A DNA stretch of 49,510 nt from a bacterium (lineage in GTDB: Bacteria > Auribacterota > UBA3054): the NCBI GenBank assembly GCA_017557885.1, contig JAFYXV010000013.1, forward strand, positions 1 to 49,510, given 5' to 3'. The notes below the pieces were generated by a model. The model saw only the letters and a program-made list of their open reading frames with translations. It was not told where the DNA came from and made no database searches. The first letter of the stretch is position 1, and each line of letters begins with the position of its first letter. Below are positions 4,817 through 15,530 of this stretch, piece by piece. Made by a program: the position numbers and the translations under genes.

Positions 4817-5791
4817 TCATTCCACTTCGCGGAATTCCCCTTTCCCGTGGGAGGCCACTCTTTTTAAAAAGGCGCAGCCCCTCTCCGCTTTTTCCCTTCT
4901 CTTTACGCTCCCGTCCCTAGCCGGCCTGTAGGCGATGGCGTTTATCTGCGTGGCTTTCTCCCTTCGGCTTTCGTCGATCAGGGCCATTATCCTTCTTTCG
5001 TGGACGATTTCGTCTTCCCCCTGCAGGTACGGCGGATCGTCGCTTATCAGGACCACCGCGTCGGGCTTCAGATTCAGAGCGAACTCCAGCGCTTTAATAG
5101 GAGTTGAGCCGCTGGTATCGGGGTCGTTGCCGCGATTGACTTTCATCTCCTTTGCTAGCCAATCGGACAATTCTCTTTTGGCGCTCTTGGTGGCGAAGCA
5201 GAGGTTCGTTTTGAAAGGAAATTTGCCGTCGGTGAACAAAACGACGTTGAAGAGCGTGTCCGGGTGGAAGAGCTCGACTGTTTTCTCCGCCTCTTTCCTG
5301 ACCGCTTCGAATACGCCCTTCTGAACGATAGAAGAGGAGGAGTCCACCAGGATGACGATCGACCGGGCCGCGATCCTCTGCCCCAGGAACTCTATCTCTC
5401 CCCAGCCGTCGCCGCCCTTCGGTGCCTTTCCCAATCCGCTGTTCCCCAGGGAAAAAGAGAAGCTGTCGCTAAGGCTTAATCCTTCGCTTTCCCTTTTGAC
5501 ATCCGGCTTGGCGATTTCCGGCACCGGAAGCGCAAGGCTTCCCGCGTCGCACTTGGCGGCGAGCTTCAGATTCTTCGCCATGCTCTGCCCGTAGGAGGCC
5601 GCCTTCTTGCACAGCAGCCTGTGCTTCAACTCCCTGGCCTTCAGTTTCGGCCCCACCGCCTGGGCTGTGAAAAAGGGCTTCGGCGGCCGCACGGCCCGAT
5701 AGACCACTATCCCTCCCGCCACGAGAAAGAGGGCCAGATGAAGCCCTACGCTCACAATAAGGCTGCCGTAGCGCGAAAAGTCAATCTTCAT
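4817..5791 (-). CDS. TonB/TolA-type anchored von Willebrand factor A protein
   Basis: A 324-residue inner-membrane protein. Residues 10-33 form one transmembrane helix preceded by a short basic N-terminus, and the helix contains S14-V-G-L-H18, the S-x3-H motif found at the same place in TonB (S16/H20) and TolA. A low-complexity periplasmic linker (about 35-140) leads to a vWA domain (about 143-290) with a full MIDAS: D150-x-S152-x-S154, T230 in SGSTPIKAL, and D251 in LISDD. In known ExbBD systems the TonB/TolA helix is moved by the proton-driven motor, and a vWA domain binds protein ligands through a metal ion. The gene is last in the operon and overlaps the second exbD by 11 bases. TonB's usual C-terminal domain is absent. 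A MIDAS-dependent effector in place of TonB is my inference. Confidence 0.85.
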   Translation of the reverse strand: MKIDFSRYGSLIVSVGLHLALFLVAGGIVVYRAVRPPKPFFTAQAVGPKLKARELKHRLLCKKAASYGQSMAKNLKLAAKCDAGSLALPVPEIAKPDVKRESEGLSLSDSFSFSLGNSGLGKAPKGGDGWGEIEFLGQRIAARSIVILVDSSSSIVQKGVFEAVRKEAEKTVELFHPDTLFNVVLFTDGKFPFKTNLCFATKSAKRELSDWLAKEMKVNRGNDPDTSGSTPIKALEFALNLKPDAVVLISDDPPYLQGEDEIVHERRIMALIDESRREKATQINAIAYRPARDGSVKRREKAERGCAFLKRVASHGKGEFREVE

Positions 5792-6221
5792 CAGAGCAAT
5801 TGAAAGTCACGTTGGTTAGCCCGGCCTTGTGGCAGCAGTCCAGGACCAGCGCGATCCTTTCGTGCAGCGCATCGTCCGCGGCGGAAATGGAGATGAGAGC
5901 AGGGATCTTCGCGCCCCGGGAGGCCGCCTGGAAGCGCATTAGGGTCTCTGCTAGTTCTGTGAGTTCCCGGCTCTTGGCCGGGACAAGCGTCTGTCCGTTC
6001 AAAACGACCGCTCCCTCCTCGTCAACTTCTATGACCTGCTCGTCCGGCATGACGACCGCTTCCGCTGCCCGGCCTTCCCCCGGAAGCGAAAACCCCAGGT
6101 CCCCTTCTGTTTTGTTCAAAGAGCAGGCGGACATGAAATAGATCAAAAGCAGAAACGTGCAGTCTATCATGGAGGAAATAGGAAAGCTTATCTTGCCGGT
6201 TTCTTTTTTATTGATCCTCAT
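5781..6221 (-). CDS. ExbD/TolR-family protein (second copy)
   Basis: A 146-residue ExbD-like subunit with a short cytoplasmic basic end, one transmembrane helix (about 15-35) and a periplasmic domain. The helix keeps the proton-path aspartate, D20 in SSMIDCTFLLLIYF, equivalent to Asp25 of E. coli ExbD. It starts in a TGATG overlap with the stop codon of the first exbD, so translation is coupled. It differs clearly from the first copy in the periplasmic part, so the stator may be a heterodimer of two ExbD types. Confidence 0.88.
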   Translation of the reverse strand: MRINKKETGKISFPISSMIDCTFLLLIYFMSACSLNKTEGDLGFSLPGEGRAAEAVVMPDEQVIEVDEEGAVVLNGQTLVPAKSRELTELAETLMRFQAASRGAKIPALISISAADDALHERIALVLDCCHKAGLTNVTFNCSDED

Positions 6222-6631
6222 CAGCTCTCCTCATAGACGGAAAAGATTATTTTCGCCAAGCCCGCTTCCGCGCAGAGCTTCACGAATTTTTTCGTGACCT
6301 GGCTCTTGCTTCTTCGATCGATCCTTAAAAGCACCGTGCCCTTGGGCGTCGTCTTCGCGAAAGCTTCCAGCTCAGATTTTGCTTCCTCTATTTCGACTTT
6401 TCTCCCGTTGACAAGACAGCTCTCATCCCTTAGGATCGTCAGCGCGCAGAAAGCTTCCTCGCCTTCCCTTTTCCCGAAGTTCTTTACTTCCGGAAGCTCC
6501 AGCTCTTCCGGCGTGGAAAGGTTCTGCATGGTGGCGCTGCACATGAAGAAGATGAGAAGCAGAAAGACCATATCGATCATGGGCGCCATGTCCAGCTCAC
6601 ACTCCGCTTTCTTTTTCCTTGGCGGCCGCAC
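6221..6631 (-). CDS. ExbD/TolR-family protein (first copy)
   Basis: A 136-residue ExbD-like subunit. I start it at GTG 6631 because a strong AAGGAGG (6642-6636) lies 4 bases upstream and the protein then begins with a short basic segment as the family does; the longer reading from 6721 would lie inside exbB and give a long arginine-rich, shadow-like leader. The helix carries D20 (DMAPMIDMVFLLLIFF), the conserved proton-translocating aspartate. The first 35 bases overlap the end of exbB. It is expected to form the PMF-driven motor with ExbB. Confidence 0.88.
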   Translation of the reverse strand: MRPPRKKKAECELDMAPMIDMVFLLLIFFMCSATMQNLSTPEELELPEVKNFGKREGEEAFCALTILRDESCLVNGRKVEIEEAKSELEAFAKTTPKGTVLLRIDRRSKSQVTKKFVKLCAEAGLAKIIFSVYEES

Positions 6632-7400
6632 TTCTCCTCCTTTTCGGTTTTTCCTTTTCCTCTTCTTCCTCCAGGCCCAGCTTGACCCTGACTTTTTCCC
6701 TTGCCAAGCCCGCTCCCGCATACACGTCGATAAGTTCCGTAACGCGGGCCAGCAGCTCCCGCTCCCTGATGTCGAAACGGCTCTTCAAAACAAAGAAGGA
6801 AACCATGGCCGGAATGCCGACTATAAGTCCTGCGGCGGTGGTCAGCAGCGCTTCCCCGATGTCGCCGGCCAAAAGCTCCGGCTTGCCCATGCCGCCCAAA
6901 CCGATCTTTGAAAAAGCTTTTATCATGCCGCTTACCGTCCCCAACAGACCCAGCATCGGGGAGAGCGCCGCGATGGTGGAGAGCAGGTTGAACCAAAACT
7001 GCATCGCGATGCTTTTGCCCTCCCATTTTTCCAAGACCGCCTCTTCCGCCTGCGATCTCTCTTCCTTGTCGAGGGGATACTTCAGCTTTTCTATGCCCGG
7101 CGCCAAAACCAGCGCCAGAACGCTTTTGCTGAGCGCCAAAAGATCAAGCGCGGCTTTAAGGTCCCTCTTATAGAGCGCGGCCTCCAACCGCTCCGGAAGT
7201 CCTTTGGGAACAAACTTTCCTTTGCGCGTCTCGAAGAAACTGTAAACCGTGAGCCAGACTACCACGCAGGAGCAAATGGCCAGGGGATACATCAAAGGCC
7301 CGCCCGTCTTGAAAAGCCCCAATGCGGTGGTGCTAAGCGATTCCTCTTCCCCGAATGCGGAAAGAGCGGCGAAAACAAAACAAACGATCAAAAACTTCAC
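6597..7400 (-). CDS. MotA/TolQ/ExbB proton channel protein
   Basis: A 267-residue ExbB-family channel subunit. It opens with a signal-peptide-like segment (about 1-17), then has a transmembrane helix about 35-55, a cytoplasmic stretch rich in charged residues, and two further helices about 140-165 and 185-205 with the family's small-residue pattern (TIAALSPMLGLLGTVSGMI, LLTTAAGLIVGIPAMV). The C-terminus is a highly charged Lys/Glu/Arg tail (about 240-267) that exbD overlaps. Its stop lies within the exbD coding region, and its start overlaps the upstream gene by 4 bases. It should supply the proton channel for the vWA-linked motor. Confidence 0.92.
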   Translation of the reverse strand: MKFLIVCFVFAALSAFGEEESLSTTALGLFKTGGPLMYPLAICSCVVVWLTVYSFFETRKGKFVPKGLPERLEAALYKRDLKAALDLLALSKSVLALVLAPGIEKLKYPLDKEERSQAEEAVLEKWEGKSIAMQFWFNLLSTIAALSPMLGLLGTVSGMIKAFSKIGLGGMGKPELLAGDIGEALLTTAAGLIVGIPAMVSFFVLKSRFDIRERELLARVTELIDVYAGAGLAREKVRVKLGLEEEEEKEKPKRRRSAAAKEKESGV

Positions 7401-8236
7401 GGCAGCAGCTCCTCGGTGTAGGTGTTTATCAGGTGCGTCTTGGTATAGCGGTCTTTAATTTCCAGCCAGCGCAAAATAAGCTTCCTGTGCCGGCGGAATT
7501 CGACTTCCCTATATTCGTTGGTCAGTATCCCGGCCAAGCGGAAGGCCGTTTCCTGATCCCCCGCTCTCAGGGCGCAGACGCTCCCTAAAAAAAGGCAGTC
7601 CGCATCGACCTTCCTTTCCAGCGCGAAAAACATAGGAGGAGGGAGAAGATAAAAGAGCGCGTTCCTGAAATCCTCCTCCCGGTACAAGATGCGGCCCATA
7701 TAGTAGTGCCAGAGCGTCGCCGATTCTTCCTCTCCCTTTTCCCAAGCAAACTTTTCCAAGACTTCCCTGGCTTTTTTGTGATCTTTGGTCTTCCAATGGC
7801 AGATGCCCAGATACAGCCCGGCCGCTTCTTCTTTGCTTTTAACGAAATAGCGCTTGGCCTCCTGGTAGCGGGCGCAGTTGAAAAGCAATTTCCCGTAGGC
7901 GAAATACGGCGCCTCCGCCCCGCCGGGCCAGTAAGAACCCCAGGCGTAGAGCTCCCACAATTCTTTCCCCCGGTCCAGCGCTCGCTTCATTTTCGGCCCC
8001 CGGCGGTAGCTTTTTTCCGCCAATTCCGTAAGTTCCACAGGATCGCTTAATCTCAGCTTCGTCACCTGCTCCTTTTTGGCGCGGCACTTCATAAGGGAGC
8101 CGTCTTTAGCGTACCTTTCGTAAACGATCGCGTTCTCTTCGCGTTCCAAAAGCCGTCCGCTGAAACTCTGCCCGGACTGCAGCGTCAGCCTGATAGGCAG
8201 CATAACTGACAAAAACAAAAGGTACGGTCTTCTCAT
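7397..8236 (-). CDS. Exported small TPR-like protein
   Basis: A 279-residue protein starting at ATG 8236, which overlaps the stop of the upstream TPR gene (ATGA); an extension to 8278 would give an unlikely leader. Residues 1-18 look like a signal peptide. An N-terminal beta-rich module follows (SGQSFSGRLLEREENAIVYER; about 20-65), resembling a small SH3-like barrel. From about 85 onward it is helical, with TPR-like pairs (YFAYGKLLFNCARYQEAKRYF, GLYLGICHWKTKDHKKAREVL). No enzyme motif is seen. It probably bridges the large TPR protein and the ExbBD motor in the periplasm, judged only from context. Confidence 0.75.
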   Translation of the reverse strand: MRRPYLLFLSVMLPIRLTLQSGQSFSGRLLEREENAIVYERYAKDGSLMKCRAKKEQVTKLRLSDPVELTELAEKSYRRGPKMKRALDRGKELWELYAWGSYWPGGAEAPYFAYGKLLFNCARYQEAKRYFVKSKEEAAGLYLGICHWKTKDHKKAREVLEKFAWEKGEEESATLWHYYMGRILYREEDFRNALFYLLPPPMFFALERKVDADCLFLGSVCALRAGDQETAFRLAGILTNEYREVEFRRHRKLILRWLEIKDRYTKTHLINTYTEELLP

Positions 8237-10737
8237 AAATATCCCTTTTCCTTGGCTTCTTTTTCCGTGGCGGCCCAATCGTTCGTCCTGCCCAGCGCCT
8301 GAAAACAGACAAGGCTCTTTTCATAGGCCTCTTTCACCGCTTTCTTTTCCCCCTGGTACATGACGTAGACCCGCTGGTAGTAGCCCAGCGCCTCGCCGTA
8401 TTTCTTTCCCGCGATATAGCAGTCTCCCGCCAGCAGAAGCAAGGCGGCTTTTTTCTCCGGAGGAAGGCCCTTCTGCCCCAGAAGCGCCAGAAACTTCTGC
8501 AGCGCCTCCTCCGTCTTCCCTTGATTGAAGAATGATCTGCCCTGCAGTTCGTCCCTGCGGTAAAGATCCTCTATACGCTGGTAGGACTCCTCGCCTTCCA
8601 AAAGATAAGCCTCCGCCTCGGCGTAGCGCGCCTTTTCCACGCAACGTTCGGCCAGGCAGAGCCAGCCTTCGGAAGCGGCTGGATCCTTGGGGAATTCTTC
8701 CGTCAGATACTTCGCCAATTTTTCCGCTTCGCCTCCTTGCTTTTCCTTTGCCAGAATGAGCCGGCGCCTCAGGCCCTCCGGCCCCAGCGTCTGATATTTC
8801 AGCTTTCCCAACCCGGCGTCGTCTTTCAAAAACAAGGAGATCTTGGCATAGGCTCCCGTTTTGCCTTTTTCCAGTTCCAGAGCCGCCTCTTTTAAAAGCG
8901 CTTCCTTATACGCCCCGGCGTCCTCCGCAAACTGAAGGCCTGCCGTCAGCGCCCCCAACGCTTCGCCTTCCGCAAGCTCGTCCTTGGTCCTCAGCCAAAG
9001 TTTCCAAGCCGCGCTCCTGGCTTTTTCCTTTTCTCCCAGGATCCGGCAAGAACAAAGATAAGCGCTGAGGGCTTCGCCCCGGAAGCCTATCGTCCCTTCC
9101 GCAAGCAGGTAAGGCTCCAATAGTTCCATAGCGAGCCTCGGCCTTCCTAATACCTCGTAAATTTCCGCCGCTTTCAGAAGCGCGTAGCAGGCGAAATTGT
9201 CCGGCTTCTCTTTTTCCTGCGGCAGATTCCCTCTGTAAGCCGCCAGCGCTTCCGTAAGCTCCCCTGTGGCTCCCAGGGCGTCCCCTAAGGTGTTCTTCAC
9301 CTCTTTTAGGTTATCGTACTCGGGGTAGCGCTCCAAAACCGCTCTCAGGGCCTTCTGGGCCTCCAAATAGTCCTCCCTGCGGTAGAGAATGGCCGCCAAA
9401 CGGAACTCCACGTCCGCCAGGTGCGAATTCTTGGGATATTTTTGCTTGAAAGCGGAAAATGTCGCTTGCGCTTCCTCGTCCAGCACCTGATAATACGCCA
9501 GCATGCCCTTCCAATACATTGCCTCTGCCGACAGCTTATGCTCTTCCCCGAAAGCGGCGAGCCAGGCTTCCGTTTCCGCGAGGGCCGCCTTCTCTTCGCC
9601 CAGGAAGCCCAGGGCGCAGGCCGCGTACAGTTTCGCTTCCCCCAATAATTCGGAGGAAGGATATTTTTTGGCAAACTCCAGAAACCTATCCCGCGCCCTC
9701 TGGTATTCTGTGGCCCGCAGGGCGCCCTGGGCCGGCAGCAGCGCCAGCGCTTCCAGTTCATCCTCTTTCAGCTTTTCCCTTAAAAGCTCCGCCACGCCCC
9801 TTTCCAGACGGTCCAGGTATCCTCCCTGCAGACAGGCGTAGCAGGCTAGCTTTTTCAAGCCAACCTTCACGAAATCGTTGGTGGTTGTCCTTATGCCTTC
9901 CTCACAATAGACCGCGCATTCCGGATAATAGCAGGCATCGTAACAGGCCCTGGCCAATCTCGCCAGTCTCGCCTCGCCGCAGGAAGCTTTGTCCGCCAGA
10001 CGGTAAGCGCTAAGGGCGCCGGAAAAATTATTGCTCATATAAAGAACGTCCCCCATTCTCAGCGCCAGATAATTCCTTAAGGACGCGGAATCCTCTTTTT
10101 TGTTCAGCGCCAGGCCTTCCCGCAGCCACGAAAGCGCCGCGTCCGCCTTCCCGATTTCCAGCAAACACCAGGAAAGATTAAGCGAAGAAAGCGCCCGGAA
10201 TTTTTTCACCTCCTTCACTTCCTCCCAATAGGGCAGCGCCTCTTCATAGCGCCCCGCTTTCGTCAGGGACAGCGCCAGATTCGCTTTCACTTCCGCCGCG
10301 TCGCCAAATCCTTCTTGCAAAAGATTTCGGAAAGCGTCCGCCGCGATAAGATAATGCCCGAGCTCCATCTCCGCCATCCCGAAACCGAAACGCGCGTTCT
10401 TTGCTTCCGAAAAGGCAGGATACTCTTTCCCCGCCTTGGCAAACAGATCGGACGCTTCCTCGAAACGCTTTATCCTGTAGGCCGCCAATCCTCCGAAATA
10501 AGTCATGCGGGGAAAATAGTTCGTCATCTCCTCCTCTTCCCCGTAGCGCGCCAGAAAAGTCCGCGCCGCAAAAAAGGCGTTCGTCGCCTCTCCTCTTTTC
10601 AGCGAAGCGTAAGTAAAACGAAACAGCCCCGCCGAATCAAGCTCGTCAAGCTCTCCGCCCGCGGAGGAGTATCCTAAGACCAAACAGAGCCACAGGATGC
10701 CTGTTTCGGCAGCGATTTTAATTTTCTGACCGCACAT
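8233..10737 (-). CDS. Large periplasmic TPR-repeat protein, first gene of the ExbBD-vWA operon
   Basis: An 834-residue protein with an N-terminal signal peptide (about 1-27, ending SSAGG) followed by tandem tetratricopeptide-type helical pairs along nearly its whole length (recurring A-x-x-F/Y..G-x-x-x-E-A-L patterns such as RYEEALPYWEEVKE and KKYGEALGYYQRVYVMYQG). TPR arrays act as protein-docking scaffolds. In Vibrio and Shewanella TonB2-type systems a TPR protein is encoded with ExbB/ExbD and is needed for function; here the same association precedes a vWA protein. Start ATG 10737 has GAGGAA upstream. It heads a run of six genes with 4- to 35-base overlaps. Binding partners are unknown. 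Confidence 0.85.
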   Translation of the reverse strand: MCGQKIKIAAETGILWLCLVLGYSSAGGELDELDSAGLFRFTYASLKRGEATNAFFAARTFLARYGEEEEMTNYFPRMTYFGGLAAYRIKRFEEASDLFAKAGKEYPAFSEAKNARFGFGMAEMELGHYLIAADAFRNLLQEGFGDAAEVKANLALSLTKAGRYEEALPYWEEVKEVKKFRALSSLNLSWCLLEIGKADAALSWLREGLALNKKEDSASLRNYLALRMGDVLYMSNNFSGALSAYRLADKASCGEARLARLARACYDACYYPECAVYCEEGIRTTTNDFVKVGLKKLACYACLQGGYLDRLERGVAELLREKLKEDELEALALLPAQGALRATEYQRARDRFLEFAKKYPSSELLGEAKLYAACALGFLGEEKAALAETEAWLAAFGEEHKLSAEAMYWKGMLAYYQVLDEEAQATFSAFKQKYPKNSHLADVEFRLAAILYRREDYLEAQKALRAVLERYPEYDNLKEVKNTLGDALGATGELTEALAAYRGNLPQEKEKPDNFACYALLKAAEIYEVLGRPRLAMELLEPYLLAEGTIGFRGEALSAYLCSCRILGEKEKARSAAWKLWLRTKDELAEGEALGALTAGLQFAEDAGAYKEALLKEAALELEKGKTGAYAKISLFLKDDAGLGKLKYQTLGPEGLRRRLILAKEKQGGEAEKLAKYLTEEFPKDPAASEGWLCLAERCVEKARYAEAEAYLLEGEESYQRIEDLYRRDELQGRSFFNQGKTEEALQKFLALLGQKGLPPEKKAALLLLAGDCYIAGKKYGEALGYYQRVYVMYQGEKKAVKEAYEKSLVCFQALGRTNDWAATEKEAKEKGYL

Positions 10738-14504: not shown

Positions 14505-15530
14505 ATGAAATCACCAACAGAACCAATCAACGACAAAACTACAGAGGCAATCTATACTTCCATAAGATCCTTTGTCATTAACGCTCAAAACAAAATTTAT
14601 TCTGCTATTAATTCTGCTATGGTTACTGCTTATTGGGAAATAGGAGAACAGATATACAAAGTATGCGGAGAAAACGATAGAGCTGAATATGGTCAAAACA
14701 TACTAAAATATCTTTCTGACAGGTTAATCGCAGAGTTCGGCAAAGGGTATACGGTGCGAAATTTACGAGCAATGCGTCAATTTTATTGTTGCTTTAAGTT
14801 TCGACATAAGTTGTTTGCTGAACTCAGTTGGTCGCATTATCGTTTGCTAATGAAGATCACAGATAAAACCGCTCGTGATTTCTACACAGAGGAATGCGTC
14901 AAGGCCGCCTGGAGCGTTCGGCAGTTGGAACGGCAGATCAACACGATGTATTATCAGCGGCTTCTCGCGAGCAAAGACAAAGATGCCGTTAGAGCTGAAA
15001 TACAAAGAACCGAGCCAAAACCGGAATATGAAAAAGTCGTCAAGAATCTTTATGTCATGGAGTTTTTACAAATAAAGCCTGACACCAAAGTTTATGAGGA
15101 GGAAATTGAACAAGCCTTGATCGACCATTTGCAGCAATTTCTTTTGGAGCTTGGACGCGGTTTTTCACTTGTCGCCCGTCAAAAACGTTTTACGCTGAAC
15201 GGACAGGATTTCTTTATAGATCTGGTGTTTTACAACTATATCCTGAAATGTTTTGTCCTGATCGACTTGAAAACAACCAAGCTCACGCATCAAGACTTAG
15301 GACAAATGCAAATGTACGTTAATTTCTACACAAGAGAATTGATGAACGAGGGCGACAATCCTCCCATCGGAATAGTGCTGTGCGCCGAAAAAAATGACGC
15401 TGTTGTCAAATATACCTTGCCCGTAGATAACAACCAGATATTCGCGTCAAAATTTTTGACCTGCCTTCCTACGGAAGAAGAGCTGAAGAGAGAATTGCGC
15501 CTGGATTCGTTTATAAAAATTGAGAAATAA
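14505..15530 (+). CDS. YhcG/DUF1016-family PD-(D/E)XK nuclease
   Basis: A 341-residue protein with the two-domain layout of the family: N-terminal helical DUF1016_N (about 10-165; AYWEIGEQIYKV, RNLRAMRQFY, LSWSHYRLLM) and a C-terminal PD-(D/E)XK-like nuclease domain (about 185-335). Probable catalytic residues lie in DFFIDLVFYN (Asp) and VLIDLKTTKLTHQDLGQMQMY (D-x-K, Gln). Family members are linked to restriction-like or defence functions and are often horizontally moved; the physiological role is unsettled. AGGAG lies 10 bases upstream of ATG 14505. It is more AT-rich than the neighbouring housekeeping genes. It converges on lpxK with only 5 bases between the stops. Confidence 0.92.
   Translation: MKSPTEPINDKTTEAIYTSIRSFVINAQNKIYSAINSAMVTAYWEIGEQIYKVCGENDRAEYGQNILKYLSDRLIAEFGKGYTVRNLRAMRQFYCCFKFRHKLFAELSWSHYRLLMKITDKTARDFYTEECVKAAWSVRQLERQINTMYYQRLLASKDKDAVRAEIQRTEPKPEYEKVVKNLYVMEFLQIKPDTKVYEEEIEQALIDHLQQFLLELGRGFSLVARQKRFTLNGQDFFIDLVFYNYILKCFVLIDLKTTKLTHQDLGQMQMYVNFYTRELMNEGDNPPIGIVLCAEKNDAVVKYTLPVDNNQIFASKFLTCLPTEEELKRELRLDSFIKIEK

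Follow-up and report, generated by a model that had tools for sequence, protein, structure and literature searches.

ExbB/ExbD motors are the textbook drivers of TonB and Tol, and the locus described here raises the question of what such a motor drives when its operon ends in a gene for a vWA protein. The locus lies in a 49,510-nucleotide stretch of an Auribacterota genome (contig JAFYXV010000013.1; "the window" denotes this whole stretch), on the minus strand from 10737 to 4817, where six genes with overlapping junctions follow one another in the order TPR1–TPR2–ExbB–ExbD1–ExbD2–vWA. All six, first noticed when the stretch was read from its letters alone (the sequence-only reading), are present. 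We consider, with a probability of about 0.72, that a dedicated motor powered by proton-motive force (PMF) drives the vWA protein as a TonB/TolA-like force transducer. The coupling of an ExbBD motor to a vWA protein in place of TonB or TolA, as the sequence-only reading had it, is thus probably right, given the SxxxH helix, linker and head of the protein and the adjacency of ExbD1, ExbD2 and vWA in eight of eight genomes whose contigs include the upstream DNA.

The vWA protein and its putative docking helix

The vWA gene (4817..5791, minus strand) encodes a putative force transducer of 324 aa, consisting of a transmembrane (TM) helix at residues ~8–34, a linker at ~35–130 and a vWA head at 130–324. 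The N-terminal helix, SLIVSVGLHLALFLVAGG, is of the TonB/TolA type and contains S14-xxx-H18; both residues are found in the window and in its genus, and no Asp occurs in residues 8–34. The spacing equals that of TonB S16/H20 and TolA S18/H22. The linker of ~95 residues is predicted to be disordered, with a predicted local distance difference test score (pLDDT) below 50 over most of residues 37–130 in the AlphaFold2 (AF2) model. In sequence the head matches the vWA family weakly (PF00092, E = 0.0055, below the cut-off), and a vWA profile gave no significant match among PDB sequences (best E = 0.76); by structure it is clear, the AF2 model of residues 130–324 matching the inter-alpha-inhibitor vWA domain with a Z score of 16.8 and a root-mean-square deviation of 2.3 over 156 aligned residues. 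No TonB_C or TolA C-terminal domain was matched in the protein by Pfam or NCBIfam. The metal-ion-dependent adhesion site (MIDAS) comprises D150/S152/S154/T230/D251, of which D150-x-S152-x-S154 and D251 are kept in 10/10 aligned orthologues and Thr or Ser fills the third position, bearing out the intact MIDAS first reported. Because it combines a TonB/TolA-type helix, a disordered linker and a vWA head, the protein is probably the motor's force transducer.

Orthologues of the vWA protein were found in six of the eight genomes of the genus (its own included) and, at 36–43% identity, in four more genomes from the order, and none was found in the rest of the phylum at E<=1e-8; the two genus genomes without an orthologue are 83% and 90% complete. 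The genus members are metagenome-assembled genomes from the rumen, omasum and reticulum of yak, goat and buffalo. The operon keeps its order within the genus and, at 36–43% vWA identity, in further families of the order. ExbD1–ExbD2 lies directly upstream of vWA in 8/8 genomes with the upstream DNA on the contig (G000, the source genome of the window, and G002, G003, G005, G006, G010, G011 and G012), and ExbB is present in 7/8. The linkage of the vWA gene to exbBD, on which the sequence-only reading had staked its proposal, therefore holds in relatives.

The SxxxH motif was also counted in some 100 motor loci, among proteins whose N terminus contains a hydrophobic helix. With helices called by a simple hydropathy rule and loci from related genomes that are not independent, the motif occurred in 37/84 proteins adjoining ExbB/ExbD and in 5/103 others (Fisher p=7e-11). 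Three of these five are vWA transducers set one intervening TPR gene away in the motor operon, so that the background is about 2/103. The motif, enriched beside ExbB/ExbD, therefore marks motor partners in these loci. Two loci carry lone vWA proteins with an SxxxH helix (L184, 7120–8103; L185, 7266–8393) and no ExbB/ExbD within a 15-kb stretch.

Motor subunits, TPR proteins and operon

The motor is encoded by an ExbB/TolQ-type gene (6597..7400; 267 aa, GTG start; PF01618, 9.6e-24) and two ExbD genes on the minus strand, ExbD1 (6221..6631; PF02472, 6.1e-23) and ExbD2 (5781..6221; 146 aa; PF02472, 7.8e-15), with all three matches above the Pfam cut-offs. The best start of ExbD1 is the GTG at 6631, which has AAGGAGGAGAA just before it and a strong AAGGAGG ribosome-binding site; the ATG further upstream is missing in congeners. 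Both ExbDs have the proton-path Asp at residue 20, as had been claimed, and for ExbD1 this numbering requires the GTG start at 6631. With both families over cut-off and the proton Asp present, these subunits constitute a motor of the ExbB/TolQ plus ExbD/TolR kind.

TPR1 (8233..10737, minus strand) is an 834-aa exported TPR superhelix protein (TPR_16, 5.6e-14), and TPR2 (7397..8236, minus strand), whose ATG at 8236 overlaps the TPR1 stop, has 279 aa (TPR_2, 2.1e-6). In the AF2 model of TPR2 (pLDDT 79.5), a five-stranded small beta-barrel at residues 13–63 precedes the TPR helices. Of the two exported TPR proteins proposed at the outset, TPR1 has a plausible signal peptide, whereas that of TPR2 is weak, though clear in its paralogue at locus L010 (all judged by eye). 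To see the TPR scaffolds as substitutes for the usual receptors is interpretation rather than observation. A Zorya-like defence system was rejected as an identity for the operon, PADLOC-DB models giving a generic TPR match as their sole hit to its proteins.

The junctions are tight, with ATGA at TPR1/TPR2, GTGA at TPR2/ExbB and TGATG at ExbD1/ExbD2, an overlap of 11 nt between ExbD2 and vWA, and one of 35 nt between ExbB and ExbD1 if GTG is the ExbD1 start. Ratios of nonsynonymous to synonymous substitution (dN/dS) against congeners are 0.06–0.19 across all six genes, so they are not chance open reading frames; the vWA gene, at 0.08, is similar to the motor genes. Matches on contigs C4 and C6 of the source assembly (92.7% complete) raised the possibility that the operon is duplicated within the genome, which was rejected, as C6 is identical with the 49,510-base window and lies wholly within C4 (G000:C4:9536-59045). 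The assembly thus carries the whole window twice, as a redundant contig rather than a biological duplication.

Elsewhere in the window, LpxK is encoded, consistent with an outer membrane containing lipopolysaccharide. Positions 37–1746 encode an exported protein with a C-terminal PEP-CTERM-like signal (LPEPAIFGVLALLGLFIARKQR), and 14505–15530 a DUF1016/YhcG PDDEXK nuclease-family gene in a local AT-rich stretch (GC 0.44).

Sister operons and motor ancestry

A second operon of the genome, on contig C7 (L010, 3559–10069), has the identical layout TPR–TPR–ExbB–ExbD–ExbD–transducer with a DUF4159 head (PF13709, 3.6e-29). TPR1 and its paralogue there share 22% identity over 875 columns. The same order, again with DUF4159, occurs in G379, which belongs to another phylum, and the TPR–TPR–ExbB–ExbD–ExbD chassis spans more than one lineage. 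The DUF4159 family has one solved relative, 4i66, which is uncharacterised. In the literature searched, PMC12204202 included, we found no paper naming DUF4159 and no description of the DUF4159 version of the machine. The C7 operon adjoins nusA/infB-like genes. Four DUF4159 proteins with TonB-like N-terminal helices stand in tandem at L232 (G187:C76), with no ExbB/ExbD within 9 kb.

In G176, from another phylum (L189), the order TPR–TPR–ExbB–ExbD–ExbD–transducer is kept with a helix motif SAAIH. The G176 head aligns with the vWA family, reads DTNRQ at the DxSxS site and has no Pfam vWA match. Because G176 keeps the order and the motor without a MIDAS, metal-dependent adhesion appears not to be essential to this type of machine, and metal-dependent binding is not supported as its essential output. 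Two families have Ala in place of the transducer-helix His or lack the residue, in vWA and DUF4159 versions alike (L027, L028, L159, L168).

Two further motors are encoded in the genome, an ExbB–ExbD pair on C2 and, on C9, ExbB–ExbD–ExbD with a TonB/TolA-like gene (PF03544; L011, 5965–6906). The sequence-only reading had allowed that a normal TonB elsewhere might serve the motor of the window; a TonB/TolA-like gene does exist, but it has its own ExbB–ExbD–ExbD, whose ExbB falls in a different clade. No PF00593 or PF07715 match, and hence no TonB-dependent receptor, was found in this 92.7% complete assembly.

To place these motors, the ExbD clusters of the phylum were surveyed, and an ExbB tree of 111 rows was built in which congeners, 87–90% identical, represent the window's own ExbB. 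The two-ExbD vWA motors (vWA2D) are monophyletic (100/99) and sister to the DUF4159 motors (DUF2D; 89/84). Both fall in one 100/97 clade with the vWA1D motors and those with a cyclase-like partner, and the TonB-type motor of the genome lies in a separate clade (100/95); the vWA and DUF4159 motors thus appear to be of separate ancestry from the TonB motor. The cyclase-like partner, found at L113 and L154 after ExbB–ExbD–ExbD, is a protein of ~700 aa with Zn-ribbon, membrane and terpene-cyclase-like repeat regions. In the ExbD tree, built on few columns, the second ExbDs of vWA operons, DUF4159 operons and G176 share one clade (99/97), and the first ExbDs cluster apart from them, less firmly, which suggests that ExbD1 and ExbD2 are an old pair. 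On this moderate support, a duplicated chassis whose head was later changed is the probable origin of the sister operons.

Proposed mechanism, alternatives and known systems

How the parts work together, and where, we infer as follows. An ExbB pentamer with ExbD1 and ExbD2, probably as a heterodimer, would form a dedicated proton motor on which the N-terminal helix of the vWA protein docks via its S14/H18 face. The disordered linker could span the periplasm, and the partner gripped by the vWA head would be located in the outer periplasm or at the outer membrane; most likely it would be a protein that the co-encoded exported TPR proteins assist or present. Proton flow via Asp20 of the ExbDs would then pull, release or remodel that partner.

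Several observations weigh against this proposal. The helix holds the S and H of the Ser-His-Leu-Ser (SHLS) motif, with A25 and V29 in the remaining two positions; in G010 and G011 Ala takes the place of the docking His; G011 has no ExbB beside its ExbD–vWA genes; and the linker model, of low confidence, shows no motor-box strand and has a predicted helix at 52–80. In E. coli, the substitutions H22A in TolA and H20A in TonB inactivate the proteins, and a disordered domain II is enough for force to be transferred (PMC10666116); the loss of His in relatives sits oddly with these dead mutants. That loss, with ExbDs and vWA still linked in G010 and G011, would suit a vWA protein that serves passively as a membrane-tethered scaffold or regulator, either by sensing load or by assisting assembly together with the TPR proteins, while force exits via the ExbDs to peptidoglycan or to the TPR proteins, which could be the load. 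G176, which lost the MIDAS yet kept the gene order, fits such a role as well. We nevertheless regard it as unlikely, since the vWA protein carries the SxxxH signature of motor partners and a linker of ~95 aa, and since the same chassis also carries DUF4159 in place of this head, as expected for an output domain.

Two other proposals are special cases of the vWA protein as force transducer. If the motor were a Tol-like envelope system, its vWA head would take the place of TolA domain III, and TPR1, as a YbgF/CpoB-like protein, would coordinate constriction of the cell wall or outer membrane in division. TPR1 does score above the cut-off for TIGR02795 tol_pal_ybgF (1.8e-30), and two OmpA/Pal-like proteins are encoded in the genome, but unrelated TPR proteins often match YbgF, the operon contains neither TolB nor Pal, and its absence outside the order means that it does not belong to the core systems of division; we consider a Tol-like role doubtful. 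A force-driven surface machine for gliding or secretion, analogous to Agl–Glt/CglB or GldLM, would instead move an adhesin gripped by the vWA head. A gliding role was suggested by Williams-Jones et al. for the class (PMC12204202), and TPR1 weakly resembles PorW/SprE (1.1e-9, below the cut-off), yet no gliding or type IX secretion genes were seen beside the operon, a genome-wide search not having been made, and we rate this as unlikely. Adhesion, secretion and glycan uptake, the outputs first put forward, are guesses. Glycan uptake is unsupported and was rejected, as conservation of the GH2 neighbour, and likewise of the neighbouring SpoIIE phosphatase, STAS and PEP-CTERM genes, stops at the genus and no TonB-dependent receptors were found; a Ton receptor as partner was rejected for the latter reason.

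Beyond this locus, we think it somewhat more probable than otherwise that periplasmic force machines form a modular family, with one chassis (TPR, barrel-TPR, ExbB, ExbD1, ExbD2, docking helix and linker) and interchangeable vWA or DUF4159 heads, and that a bacterium runs several such PMF machines in parallel beside TonB/Tol. If such motors do drive other heads, envelope energetics in Planctomycetota–Verrucomicrobiota–Chlamydiota (PVC) and related bacteria have been read too narrowly, and an ExbB/ExbD annotation there need not imply nutrient uptake. The two operon types, vWA and DUF4159, together with the natural losses of MIDAS and His, make the parts for force transfer and for choice of target testable.

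The coupling idea itself is not new, having been published as a prediction in 2025. Williams-Jones et al. described vWA proteins of TolA/TonB topology with an SHLS helix and a ~100-residue linker, encoded in PVC bacteria after a TPR gene, a tolQ-like gene and a pair of tolR-like genes; the SHLS motif is said to occur in 'many' members, and an AF3 complex model docks through the His (PMC12204202). Our literature search found no second source for the class. To that description the present analysis adds the DUF4159 sister machine and the cross-phylum order, the losses of MIDAS and His, the lack of a detectable Ton receptor and the apparently separate ancestry of the vWA/DUF4159 and TonB motors.

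The window operon is a real new member of this recently proposed class, which is known as a prediction. With the first family (Tichowtungia type) it shares a TM helix with a His at the putative docking position, a disordered linker, a vWA head and a position after TPR, tolQ-like and two tolR-like genes; it differs in having two TPR genes, the second with an N-terminal beta-barrel, and in a helix that has the S and H of SHLS, the His being absent from some relatives. The second family has a trans-pore helix with an Asp and no tolR/exbD, whereas the window helix has no Asp and two ExbDs are adjacent. TonB–ExbB–ExbD and TolA–TolQ–TolR likewise combine a PF01618 plus PF02472 motor with a docking helix, a linker and a C-terminal head, but the head here is vWA rather than TonB_C or TolA_C, the two ExbDs are distinct, and TPR proteins are the partners, with no receptor. 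The vWA1D operons (L080, L116, L156, L188) also have ExbB, an SxxxH-vWA transducer and a TPR protein of ~800 aa, and differ in having one ExbD, the order ExbB–ExbD–TPR–vWA and a separate motor clade. The C7 sister operon is identical in gene order and has ExbB and ExbD subunits that are the nearest relatives (sisters or near) of those in the window, but in it, as in its own relatives (including one in another phylum, L231), the head is DUF4159 rather than vWA.

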